Of a stretch of DNA of 40,769 nucleotides, positions 8,828 through 40,491 are shown one piece after another. This DNA is from a virus. The stretch lies in the IMG/VR virus record IMGVR_UViG_3300028573_000029, positions 1 through 40,769 of that record. One strand, written 5' to 3'. The translations under genes were made by a program, and so were the position numbers. Numbering within the stretch: position 1 is the stretch's first letter; the number at the start of each line of letters is the position of its first letter. Under the pieces are notes generated by a model. That model saw only the letters and a list, made by a program, of their open reading frames with translations. It was not told where the DNA came from and ran no database searches.

Positions 8828-9022
8828 ATGGGCGCCGGCGGCTCGAAGCGACCGAAGGTTTCGACCCCGCCGGCGCGTCCCTCCCGGATCGAAAGCATCG
8901 ACGTCGCGATCGTCGCGACCGCCCGTTTCTCCGATGGCCTTTCGATCAGCGTCGAGCGCGAAGATTTCGTCGCCGCGTATGACGCCATTCTTGTCGCGGC
9001 GCGCCGCGAATACGGGCCATGA
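8828..9022 (+). CDS. Small hypothetical protein preceding xis
   Basis: A 64-aa protein with a basic, proline-rich N-terminus and a short beta-alpha region (IESIDVAIVATARFSDGLSI, then FVAAYDAILVAARREYG). No function is recognised. GGAGG at 8816-8820 sits seven bases before ATG 8828, which is preferred over GTG 8801. Its stop overlaps the xis start as ATGA. Confidence 0.7.
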   Translation: MGAGGSKRPKVSTPPARPSRIESIDVAIVATARFSDGLSISVEREDFVAAYDAILVAARREYGP

Positions 9023-9291
9023 GCCATCGCCCCTACACCACGGCCGACGTCGCCGCGTTGCTCGGCGTTTCGGTCGACCGCTTCAACCGCTCCTATGCGC
9101 GGCGCGTGCGCGACGACGGCATGCCGCCGGCGCTGTCATCGTTCGGGCCGCGACGGTTCGCGCGGCGGCCGTTCGACGCCTGGCTCAATCGCGCCCGCGC
9201 GCTCGACCAGGCGCCGGCCAACGATGCCGAGGAATTATTGTCGCCGGATTGGACGCGCGTGCTGGCGGATGCCTACGGGGCGGGGCGATGA
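9019..9291 (+). CDS. xis: Excisionase-like MerR-type HTH protein
   Basis: A 90-aa protein. YTTADVAALLGVSVDRFNRS forms an AlpA/MerR-type winged HTH, and PRRFARRPFDAWL matches the wing and second helix of excisionase-family proteins. It lies just upstream of int in the same transcript, with only a membrane peptide gene between, as expected for a recombination directionality factor. It may bend attachment-site DNA and tip Int toward excision. Coupled by ATGA on both sides. Confidence 0.7.
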   Translation: MSHRPYTTADVAALLGVSVDRFNRSYARRVRDDGMPPALSSFGPRRFARRPFDAWLNRARALDQAPANDAEELLSPDWTRVLADAYGAGR

Positions 9292-9423: not shown

Positions 9424-10695
9424 ATGGCCAATCTCAAAATACCCTATGTCGCGCTGCGCGATGGTCGCCCGCGTTTCATTCCGAGCGCGCGTGAGCGCAA
9501 GCTCGGCTTTCGCGGCGAGGATCTTAAGCACCCGGACGGCCGCTGGTTCTCGCTCGACGAGGCGCGGGAATTTGCCGAGCGGCGGCTCGAAGCGATCAAG
9601 CAGGCGCGGCTCACCGGCAAAAAATTCAAGCCGCCGGCGGTGACGCGCAGCGGTGGCAGCGTCGGCGATCTGCTCGACGACTGGCTCGCGGCGCTCAAGG
9701 CCGACACCGATCCGACGACGGCGCTGTCGCCGGACAGCATCAGGTCATACGAGAAAGCCGCGAACGCGATCCGCTGGAAACCGGAAAGCCGCGGGCAGCG
9801 CAAGACGCGCATCGGCAAGGAGCGCGCCGCCGAAACACTCGGTCTCGACGCGCCGGCGCGCGCGGCCGAACCATTTGCTGCCGCTCCGGTCGCTGCGATC
9901 GACAAGATCGCGCTCAATGATTTCTTCCTTTATCTAAAAAAGGCCCGCGGCCATCACATGGCGCAGGCGGCGATCGCGGCGTTCTCGGCGGCGTACACCT
10001 GGGGCGGCCTCGATCGCCGCTGGCGGCTCGGCGCCAACCCGCGGCATCAGATCGAACTGCCGCGGCCCGAAGGGCGCATCGTGATCTATTCCGACGCCGA
10101 GATCCGCGCGCTGCTCGAAGCCGCCGACGCGATGGAGCGGTCCTCGATCGGCGACGCCGTCATGCTCGGCCTGTTCACCGCGCAGCGCCAGCGCGATCGC
10201 GTGTTCCTCAAAGACGAGGGCCTGGTCGATGGCCGCCGCCACTTCCGGCAGACCAAAACAAAAAAACTGGTCGCGGTGAAAGACGCGCCGCAGCTCGCCG
10301 CCAGGCTCGCCGAGGCGCGCGTCCGCACCGCGGCGATGGCGCTCAAGTTCGGCCACAAGGCAGAGCAGCGGCCGGCGACCATCATCGTCGATGAGCGAAC
10401 CGGCGATACCTACAAGCAGGACACCTATCGTCACGCCTTCGCCGAGGTCCGCGCCACCGCGGCCGCGGCGTTGCCGAGCCTCCTTGGCAAGCGCGATCAG
10501 GATCTCCGCGACACCGCGGTCACCTGGCTGGCGCGCGCCGGCTGCACCTTGCTGGAGATCTGCGCGATCTCCGGCCACTCGCCGCGCTCGGCGCAGACCA
10601 TCATCAAGCATTATCTTGGCTCGCAGGCCGAGCTCGCCGACGCCGGCGTCGACAAGCTGGTGGCCTGGATGGCGCGCGAGGGGATTGCGGTGTGA
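9424..10695 (+). CDS. int: Tyrosine integrase
   Basis: A 423-aa tyrosine recombinase. The N-terminal 1-70 is an arm-type binding domain (RDGRPRFIPSARERKLGF, HPDGRW). The core-binding region is about 78-200 and the catalytic domain about 220-423. Catalytic residues seen are Arg in AQRQRD (R255 or R257), the hairpin lysines near 278-281, DLR (360-362), GHS with H385, and Tyr Y397 in IIKHYLG. The usual HxxR is QDLR here. GGGGAG lies seven bases before ATG 9424. Integration most likely occurs at a tRNA gene, given the tRNA-like attP at 11757-11802. Confidence 0.93.
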   Translation: MANLKIPYVALRDGRPRFIPSARERKLGFRGEDLKHPDGRWFSLDEAREFAERRLEAIKQARLTGKKFKPPAVTRSGGSVGDLLDDWLAALKADTDPTTALSPDSIRSYEKAANAIRWKPESRGQRKTRIGKERAAETLGLDAPARAAEPFAAAPVAAIDKIALNDFFLYLKKARGHHMAQAAIAAFSAAYTWGGLDRRWRLGANPRHQIELPRPEGRIVIYSDAEIRALLEAADAMERSSIGDAVMLGLFTAQRQRDRVFLKDEGLVDGRRHFRQTKTKKLVAVKDAPQLAARLAEARVRTAAMALKFGHKAEQRPATIIVDERTGDTYKQDTYRHAFAEVRATAAAALPSLLGKRDQDLRDTAVTWLARAGCTLLEICAISGHSPRSAQTIIKHYLGSQAELADAGVDKLVAWMAREGIAV

Positions 10696-10944
10696 GCTTG
10701 ACAAATCGCCGGCACGCGCTCAGTTTTTGCAACGGAGCTTGACAACTCCAAATCACAGGGCGGGTGCCGGGCTTCCCGAAAGGCCCAACTTCCGTCACTA
10801 AACATCCGGGGTCCGCGCGCGTATGTCCAGGGCGTAAGCCTAAAGGCGCACGGGCACTTCTCTGTGAGTGTTGTCAAGCCCCGGAGCCGTTGCGGTTTGA
10901 CAACGCAGCGTCTCTGCAACCGCCAGCACAGAGGACGCGCAGCT
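10696..10944. repeat. Gene-free stretch with four TTGACAA sites
   Basis: No gene is supported in these 249 bases. TTGACAA occurs at 10698-10704, 10739-10745 and 10897-10903, and in inverse orientation at 10871-10877, mostly inside GCTTGACAAC. None has a matching -10 at the right distance, so they are unlikely to be promoters. They may be protein-binding sites, for example Int/Xis arm sites, or related to the TTGACAA core of the origin iterons. Confidence 0.5.
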
Positions 10945-11169
10945 ATGCCCGTCATTCCGTTTCCGCAACGAATACATGAAAAACTTGGGGAGCTTGAGTG
11001 CCTCCTGGTCGAAATCGAAGCGATCTCCGAAACGCTCGAATTGATCGACCAGGTACCGCCGAGCGGCCGCCAGCGCCGCCTTTGGGAAAACTGCATCGTT
11101 ATGCTTCACGGCTATGTCGCTAGGAACGCCGCGAAGGCGACGGAGCTTTGCGAGGATCTAAGGACGTGA
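10945..11169 (+). CDS. Small helical protein upstream of the GIY-YIG fusion
   Basis: A 74-aa protein, all helical (KLGELECLLVEIEAISETLE suggests a short coiled coil). No known domain. GAGGA lies nine bases before ATG 10945, which is preferred to an earlier ATG at 10864 that lies within the TTGACAA region. Its stop overlaps the next gene's GTG (GTGA), so the two are made together; it may partner the fusion protein. Confidence 0.65.
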   Translation: MPVIPFPQRIHEKLGELECLLVEIEAISETLELIDQVPPSGRQRRLWENCIVMLHGYVARNAAKATELCEDLRT

Positions 11170-11714
11170 CGTTGCGCTACATCACATGGCGTGCCGGGCG
11201 CCCGCGTTTCAATCCGTCATCGCGCGAGCGGGCGCTCGGCTTTAAAAGCCACGACCTAAAATATCCCGACGGCAGGTGGCTCACCTACGAAGAGGCCCAA
11301 GCCTACGGCGAAGCCATCTACACCGAGATCATTGCGAAGCGCGCAGAAAAGACGGGCAAAAAAATCGGCCACCGAGCGCGACCGAAACTCCAAAGCATCG
11401 ACCGCGGCGGCTACGTCTATTTTATGTTTTGCGGAGACGAAGTGAAGATCGGTTACTCGCTCGCGCCAATTCGACGGCAGGCCCAACTCATGACGGCCCT
11501 GCCGCGCGAACCGGACACCTTTTTTATGCGACGCGGTACGCGCGCACACGAGCGAGCAGCGCATCGCGAGCTTGCTCAATGGCGCGTTCGCGGCGAGTGG
11601 TTTCGACGAGTACCCGAACTCATCGCGCACGTGCAGCGATTGATGGATGATGACACGCCGCCGACGCCAGCGAACGTCTGGAAACGCCGTGACGAGGACA
11701 AAGCCGCCTCGTAA
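11166..11714 (+). CDS. Integrase N-terminal-like domain fused to GIY-YIG nuclease domain
   Basis: A 182-aa protein. Residues 1-66 align with the first 67 residues of the integrase in this same genome (GRPRF, RER.LGF, DLK.PDGRW; about 26 of 44 identical by eye). Residues 80-160 are a T5orf172/MUG113-type GIY-YIG domain: GYVYF (82-86), KIGYS (94-98), E129 and H133 in HERAAH, GEWF (143-146). The start GTG 11166 is fixed by overlap with the previous stop. Located between int and attP, the protein probably targets arm-type DNA sites for cutting. Biological role is unknown. Confidence 0.8.
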   Translation: MTLRYITWRAGRPRFNPSSRERALGFKSHDLKYPDGRWLTYEEAQAYGEAIYTEIIAKRAEKTGKKIGHRARPKLQSIDRGGYVYFMFCGDEVKIGYSLAPIRRQAQLMTALPREPDTFFMRRGTRAHERAAHRELAQWRVRGEWFRRVPELIAHVQRLMDDDTPPTPANVWKRRDEDKAAS

Positions 11715-11756
11715 AACGTCAACAATTTTGGGTAGTTAACATAAAAAATCGAGGTA

Positions 11757-11802
11757 TCTCTTAATCAGCGGGTCCTAGGTTCGAGCCCTAGTGCGCCCAC
11801 CA
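11757..11802 (+). other. attP: attP core: 3' half of a tRNA gene, probably tRNA-Lys
   Basis: From the anticodon loop onward the sequence reads as a tRNA: TTAATCAGCGGGTCC, then a T arm CTAGG-TTCGAGC-CCTAG, then acceptor strand TGCGCCC, discriminator A and CCA. The 5' half is absent, so this is not a functional gene but the phage copy of the tRNA 3' end that restores the host gene after integration. The anticodon-stem sequence fits tRNA-Lys best. The exact left edge of the core is uncertain by a few bases. Confidence 0.85.
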
Positions 11803-11840
11803 AACAAAATCAAAGGCTTGAGGCGGAACGATCGGGGAAC

Positions 11841-11893
11841 GTGAGACATCCGTGAGACTAGTCTCACGGATTTTGTGTCTCACGGTGTCTCAC
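11841..11893. repeat. GTGAGAC/GTCTCAC inverted repeats beside attP
   Basis: GTGAGAC at 11841-11847 and 11852-11858, and GTCTCAC at 11861-11867, 11877-11883 and 11887-11893. The central pair forms the perfect 20-bp palindrome CCGTGAGACTAGTCTCACGG (11850-11869). Lying 40-90 bases from the tRNA-like core, these are likely Int or Xis arm-type sites. As a stem-loop between convergent genes they might also terminate transcription. Confidence 0.65.
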
Positions 11894-11903
11894 GGCCGCC
11901 GCT

Positions 11904-39912: not shown

Positions 39913-40491
39913 TCATGGGCGTTTCTCGCCCGCGTGAGACACCATGCCGTGCGACACGTCGTCGGACGGCGCGGGAAGTGCCTGATTTTGCTCGCTTTCC
40001 AGATAGGTCCACGGCGCCTTGCCGCCCTGCGCCGGCGCAGCGCCGAACAGGCCGAAATTCATCGCAAAGAACGGCACCGCGCGGCCCTGGTTGTCGACCG
40101 GCACCATTTTCGGCATGAAGTAGGGCGCCAGGCCTTCCCACACCGCGCGCAGCCGATCGAACGCTTCGAGCTTGGTGCAGCCGAGCTCGGCGGCGAGGCT
40201 TTCCGGCGTGTGCATCGCCCATTGCATCAACGCCGACAGCGGATTGACCCCGCGCGCCAGCAGATAGCGGCGCAGCTCCGCGGTCGATTTGTTGACCGCG
40301 CCAGGCGGCCGGCCGCGCTTGGCGTGCTCGATCGCGATCGCGCGCGCGCCGCGCGGATCCTCCGTGCGCCCCGGCAGCTCGAACAGCTCCAGCGCCTCGC
40401 CATCGGCCGCCGCGCGGTCGCTCGCAATCCTCTCAATAGCCCCAGTTATGGCCGCATCGGCGACCGCGGCGCGCCCGTTGTCGGTGCTCAT
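39913..40491 (-). CDS. terS: Putative terminase small subunit
   Basis: A 192-aa protein. KRGRPPGAVNKSTAELRRYL is a DNA-binding start common in TerS-like proteins. NPLSALMQWAMHTPESLAAE, ECTKLEAFD-type helices, then LAPYFMPKMVPVD recall the alphaproteobacterial phage TerS pattern in which a helical centre ends in the PYxxxKxP motif. It heads the late operon just before terL. The upstream GTGTCC array could be its packaging signal or the operator of its promoter. Confidence 0.7.
   Translation of the reverse strand: MSTDNGRAAVADAAITGAIERIASDRAAADGEALELFELPGRTEDPRGARAIAIEHAKRGRPPGAVNKSTAELRRYLLARGVNPLSALMQWAMHTPESLAAELGCTKLEAFDRLRAVWEGLAPYFMPKMVPVDNQGRAVPFFAMNFGLFGAAPAQGGKAPWTYLESEQNQALPAPSDDVSHGMVSHAGEKRP

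Follow-up and report, generated by a model that had tools for sequence, protein, structure and literature searches.

The closest described system in design is Odn (origin-directed nuclease, gp88) of Vibrio phage ICP1, which combines a RepA-type DNA-binding domain with a T5orf172 nuclease (Barth, Nguyen and Seed 2021, PMC8263062). The N-terminal domain of Odn resembles the replication initiator of a satellite, and Odn cuts the origin of that satellite only where the iterons occur (PMC8263062). Homing endonuclease is the usual interpretation of T5orf172 genes, which readily swap their DNA-binding domains; Zn-finger domains (CapR, DUF723 and others) occur in 87% of the T5orf172 homing endonucleases surveyed (PMC10448857). 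The gene described here joins a nuclease of this family to the N-terminal domain of a tyrosine integrase. Phage tyrosine integrases of the lambda Int type carry arm-binding domains at their N-terminus, and temperate phages commonly compete for a single attachment site. To our knowledge, no nuclease acting on the attachment site itself has been described. A paper on a GIY-YIG protein with an integrase domain was sought in the open literature and none was found. The first-pass annotation had supposed that no system of this form was described; this holds for an integrase-domain version within that literature search, but Odn is a described chimeric T5orf172 nuclease of the same logic.

Like Odn, the present protein carries an N-terminal domain taken from the site-specific DNA-binding protein of a mobile element (42% identical in Odn, about 50% here) followed by a C-terminal T5orf172 nuclease, and its predicted target is the cis-acting repeat array of the N-domain's parent protein. 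Unlike Odn, its N-domain is that of an integrase and not RepA_N (Pfam gave no RepA_N match), its predicted target is att arm sites instead of an origin, its gene lies between int and attP of a temperate phage, and its carrier itself holds the family motif (five copies in attP). Because the DNA-binding domain comes from another family and cutting is only predicted, the fusion was not classed among the Odn-type nucleases. The N-domain of this integrase family resembles the arm-binding domains of lambda Int-type integrases in its position at the integrase N-terminus and in the short repeated motif beside the att core, whereas the fusion's copy is detached from the recombinase, joined to a nuclease and without a structural match to the solved ones. 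With the Zn-finger homing endonucleases the fusion shares the nuclease family, modular DNA-binding parts and a phage carrier, although none of those described in PMC10448857 has an integrase domain or a tie to int and att.

The window (the whole stretch of DNA analysed) is a 40,769-bp IMG/VR virus record of a temperate phage, with genes for an integrase, an S24-type repressor, an endolysin, a head-tail adaptor, a major head protein and tail proteins. The fusion gene (11166-11714, + strand) encodes 182 amino acids from a GTG start with AAGGA upstream, and this start overlaps the stop codon of a small upstream ORF (Table 1). A true relative of that ORF was sought in viral contigs and none was found; the sole match reads a different frame of another gene. 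Between int and the same ORF lie the TTGACAA repeats, and all three exact GCTTGACAA in the window fall within their span; the repeats may represent a second type of site, an operator or −35 boxes. Since the segment downstream of the fusion gene is identical to the 3' part of a chromosomal tRNA-Lys(CTT) gene, it is taken as the attP core, and the fusion gene therefore lies between int and attP. It had been correctly placed there before, to which we add that the 74-aa ORF shares the interval between int and the fusion gene.

Table 1. Features of the int-attP region of the window.
Feature	Position	Strand	Basis
HTH_17-type (excisionase-like) ORF upstream of int	9019..9291	+	Pfam HTH_17 E 2e-4 (below cutoff); PHROG excisionase E 0.003
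Phage tyrosine integrase (N-domain, 9433-9627)	9424..10695	+	PHROG integrase 4e-18; N-domain matches fusion
Four TTGACAA repeats (10696, 10737, 10871 on −, 10895)	10696..10904	+	Repeat and pattern search
74-aa orphan ORF between int and fusion gene; stop overlaps fusion start (GTGA)	10946..11169	+	No match in Pfam or PHROG
Integrase-type N-terminal (putative arm-binding) domain, fusion residues 1-65	11166..11360	+	Homology to integrase N-terminus
Flexible linker, fusion residues 66-80	11361..11405	+	AlphaFold pLDDT about 50
GIY-YIG nuclease domain, MUG113/T5orf172 type, fusion residues 81-162	11406..11651	+	Pfam, catalytic residues, Foldseek against viral models
attP core, tRNA-Lys(CTT) from its anticodon loop to CCA	11758..11803	+	Exact identity to chromosomal tRNA-Lys gene
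Arm-type array, five CGTGAGAC (11840+, 11851+, 11861−, 11877−, 11887−)	11840..11894	.	Motif search

Structure prediction of both domains had been proposed in the first-pass annotation. The AlphaFold2 model, for which the alignment input consisted only of window sequences and loci from the collections, shows two well-defined domains (most blocks at pLDDT 90-98) joined by a disordered, floppy linker. The C-terminal part, residues 81-160, matches both MUG113 (PF13455; 31.1 bits, 3.5e-7) and T5orf172 (PF10544; 26.3 bits, 1.1e-5) above the Pfam gathering cut-offs of 22.3 and 20 bits respectively, and in a Foldseek structure search against viral models the fusion matched T5orf172/MUG113 proteins. 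Tyr, KIG, Arg, Glu, His and EWF of the core are unchanged across the four fusions that were found. The complete GIY-YIG core proposed earlier is thus borne out by the two Pfam matches and by the retained core residues. No match to Phage_integrase, the catalytic recombinase domain, was obtained with the fusion protein in Pfam. A fold search of the PDB with the two-domain model returned only weak GIY-YIG matches (6sei, 1zg2) and none for the N-domain, and a sequence search of the PDB gave no match. Close relatives of the whole protein were found neither in viral contigs nor in phages or plasmids, and a scan of genome contigs gave only an integrase. Taken together, the protein is a member of the MUG113/T5orf172 branch of GIY-YIG nucleases, with predicted nuclease activity.

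The N-domain was compared by BLAST with the N-terminus of the window's own integrase, giving 51% identity over 67 aa (8e-17) and 50% over 76 aa (1.3e-19), values that exclude chance. The earlier claim that it is a diverged copy of that domain was confirmed, and the 26 of 44 identical positions counted then by eye were of the right order. With the protein or an N-domain alignment as query, the domain was located, GIY-YIG matches and the fusion aside, nowhere but at the N-terminal end of tyrosine integrases and in one integrase remnant; the integrases were in 11 viral contigs, one genome contig and, of 397 genomes of one alphaproteobacterial order, many of the 38 that gave any match. Because the matches are confined in this way, the domain is not generic; the first-pass annotation had named a generic domain of many unrelated proteins as fatal to its att-targeting idea. 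An apparent stand-alone copy on a Bradyrhizobium plasmid, labelled 'hypothetical protein' (L003, 5944-6291, +), proved to be the N-terminal stump of a broken, decayed integrase. All positions invariant in eight related integrases are kept in the fusion: R9, G11, R12, P13, R14, P17, R22, G25, D30, K32 and PDGRW at 34-38. In a tree of N-domains the fusion stands beside L185, L186 and L003 (94/77), and a sister relationship with its own integrase is not rejected (p 0.588); the tree supports neither a recent copy of the phage's own integrase nor an origin that is clearly a rival's. The model of the domain is confident, small and of beta-hairpin-plus-helix form, with no match among the solved arm-binding domains of the PDB. 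As it has no counterpart among solved structures, the term arm-binding rests on position, homology and motif association, and we regard the domain as a putative arm-binding domain that would bind DNA.

The five copies of CGTGAGAC lie to the right of the attP core, 125-180 bp past the fusion gene, and no other array of that motif is present in the window. The degenerate form CGTGNGAC was counted at 25 further loci whose integrase belongs to this N-domain family: the 31.9 kb downstream of int contain 40 copies and the other 157.6 kb contain 5, and 100 letter-permuted motifs gave a mean of 5.4 and a maximum of 18 copies in the same 31.9 kb. The sites are often 60-100 bp from the 3' end of tRNA-Lys and comprise closely spaced direct and inverted copies. 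Such a distribution is the expected behaviour of arm-type sites for this integrase family, to which Int and the fusion protein would bind. Since the motif is tied to the att sites of the family and occurs in five copies past the fusion gene, the predicted target of the fusion can be named. The motif has three versions, the window's own (CGTGAGAC), CGTGCGAC and CGTGTGAC; a residue code for the variable base was sought, and no column cleanly separates the A, C and T types. L185 and L186 have homologous arrays in which C replaces A (CGTGCGAC) next to the same tRNA-Lys(CTT), which means that there are rivals for this attB with slightly different arm sites. Two more CGTGNGAC sites (CGTGAGAC and CGTGCGAC, 15 bp apart) are present at 39933-39955, far from attP, and may be due to chance. 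Across 9424-11894 of the window, Int and the arm array are on opposite sides of the att core; in the relatives L185, L186 and L007, int is on the arm side.

A gene of the same make-up was found just downstream of int, beside a tRNA, in three further alphaproteobacterial prophages with two other integrase N-domain types. At locus B (G322) the order is integrase, a 185-aa fusion and, 14 bp away, tRNA-Glu. At locus C (G236) the fusion starts inside the int stop codon (ATGA) and is 35 bp from tRNA-Gly. At locus D (G228) integrase and fusion are followed, 129 bp away, by a 3' fragment of tRNA-Pro(CGG). The overlap at C means that integrase and nuclease are probably made together, and this probable co-translation fits an action around integration or excision. 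Independent prophage calls in IMG/VR likewise have the fusions of B and C as their terminal genes. The integrase adjoining the B fusion (L058, G322:C3, 9034-10154, −) is split over two frames by a frameshift or a sequencing error.

The N-domain of each fusion was compared with the N-terminus of the neighbouring integrase. The two matched at 1e-19 in the window phage (locus A), 5e-13 at C and 6e-14 at D, and the N-domain of the B fusion is closer to the C integrase (8e-5) than to its own broken integrase (0.03). Three mutually non-matching N-domain types can be distinguished (A; B and C; D). Identity to the other nuclease halves is no more than 22-32% for those of C and D. From Pseudomonadota samples, 61 GIY-YIG ORFs of this branch were collected; a same-strand integrase within 3 kb and an N-terminal part of sufficient length for comparison were present for six, and four of these six are integrase-N fusions; the sample was partly drawn with fusion queries, so 4/61 is a biased frequency, whereas the match between a nuclease's N-domain and the neighbouring integrase is independent of that. 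A search for other pairings of such an N-domain with GIY-YIG near att, suggested in the first-pass annotation, thus yielded three loci with other integrase N-domain types, but no close relative of the whole protein. A match in G124 with one stop was rejected as a further fusion, being due to chance and having neither GIY-YIG nor int.

Other GIY-YIG genes were noted near integrases or tRNA genes. In L059 (G362:C12, 6699-7487, −) an N-terminal part that looks by eye like an HTH DNA-binding domain precedes GIY-YIG; the gene is immediately upstream of xis and int, and the int end has a tRNA-Phe. In L100 (G239:C10, 5268-6705, +) a GIY-YIG ORF without an integrase-type N-domain overlaps the 3' end of an integrase gene. 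L097, L098, L099 and L101 are long GIY-YIG proteins with a repeated N-terminal region, which we take to be a homing-endonuclease-associated repeat; the first three are beside or overlap tRNA-Ser genes in different genomes, and L101 is without a tRNA.

We propose that the gene encodes an att-directed chimeric endonuclease, aimed most likely at the attP of rivals with related integrases at the same tRNA, a proposal for and against which we consider the case about evenly balanced. The N-domain would dock on arm-type sites (CGTGNGAC in this integrase family), the tethered GIY-YIG domain would cut nearby, and the attP of other phages or satellites with related integrases at the same host tRNA gene would be destroyed or crippled, by the logic of Odn. 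Several sequence comparisons are consistent with this: an N-domain homologous to integrases and nothing else, with every invariant integrase position kept; a putative arm motif that tracks the integrase family, with near-identical arrays in presumed rivals at the same tRNA-Lys(CTT); and four loci of three integrase N-domain types at which the predicted nuclease matches its neighbour's type and lies between int and a tRNA or its fragment. The overlap of int and fusion at C, with its probable joint production of the two proteins, also counts in favour. By analogy, Odn offers a precedent for a borrowed DNA-binding domain with a T5orf172 nuclease that cuts the iterons of a satellite origin (PMC8263062). 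The idea of att targeting in the first-pass annotation therefore stands in so far as the domain is integrase-specific, its family has a definable arm-type motif that is present in the phage's own attP, and the pairing with GIY-YIG beside att recurs.

Against this proposal is the presence of the family motif in the carrier's own attP, so that self-cutting must be avoided by fine specificity, spacing or timing, or is not avoided at all. In G228 the carrier and a second prophage of the same integrase type share one tRNA-Pro, present as an intact copy and two 3' fragments, which means that the carrier does not exclude every relative. Exclusion would then not be absolute, and the two seem to differ in their repeats: CCGGACAG pairs flank att of the second prophage, and CGGAAC-type repeats are next to att of the carrier. 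L194 (G228:C68), L195 (G228:C62) and L105 (G228:C54) appear to be prophages in tandem at a single tRNA-Pro(CGG), of which one has the nuclease gene and one lacks it; their integrases are related. Also to be set against the proposal are the tree, which does not separate an own from a rival origin of the N-domain, and the lack of a match among solved arm-binding domains.

The same evidence was weighed under other explanations. A free-standing homing endonuclease with a borrowed integrase domain would cut the int/att region of relatives lacking the gene and be copied in by repair, the int-att module spreading selfishly. T5orf172 genes are mostly so regarded and exchange their DNA-binding domains (PMC10448857), the gene adjoins its presumed site, and it is absent at the same place in the related elements L007, L008, L009 and L194, where no GIY-YIG is present between int and att; a related integrase without the gene, in the same genome as a carrier, ends 16 bp from att. 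We nevertheless regard this as unlikely, because the four positions beside att are unrelated and in each the integrase type is that of the neighbour, a pattern that resembles a link to att function more than the dispersal of a single selfish gene. In addition, the C and D nuclease halves share only 22-32% identity with the others, and among near-identical phages no pair differing in the presence of the gene came to light. The fusion might instead act on the att DNA of its carrier, cutting attP only when complete (in unintegrated or superinfecting homologous copies) and sparing attL and attR, or tuning integration and excision. The arm array in its own attP, the sister relationship with its own integrase that the tree permits and the likely co-expression with int at C would suit such a role. 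A nuclease acting on its own attP would be costly, however, and all arm sites seen in the window are on one side of the core, so that attP and one of attL and attR would be alike to a binder of single arrays; we judge this role quite unlikely.

Two further explanations leave cutting of att aside. The N-domain could be a decoy or regulator that competes with the integrase for arm sites, or pairs with Int, while the GIY-YIG half cuts little or not at all. To judge from its homology, a copy of the domain must compete with Int if it binds the same sites, but four diverged fusions retain the full set of GIY-YIG core residues, which a passenger domain would not need, and we find this explanation improbable. 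The rarity of the gene and the failure to find a close homologue of the whole protein would suit a functionless chance fusion; repeated independent occurrence in the same order with intact catalytic sites makes this highly improbable.

Recurrence of such chimeric genes beside att with at least two other integrase types suggests a recurring weapon against phage integration sites. Tentatively, and with rather more doubt than belief, we extend the proposal to a recurrent, undescribed class of phage weapons, 'att-directed nucleases', in which the N-domain of an integrase of the phage's own type is joined to a T5orf172/MUG113 nuclease, kept beside att and directed at the attachment modules of competitors for the same tRNA gene (or at any unintegrated attP). 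The predicted target, arrays of CGTGNGAC, makes binding, cutting and the discrimination of self from non-self directly testable. If the proposal is true, the trick by which Odn borrows the DNA-binding domain of a rival would extend from origins to integration sites and would have arisen several times, and a small, re-targetable class of sequence-specific nucleases would be added.
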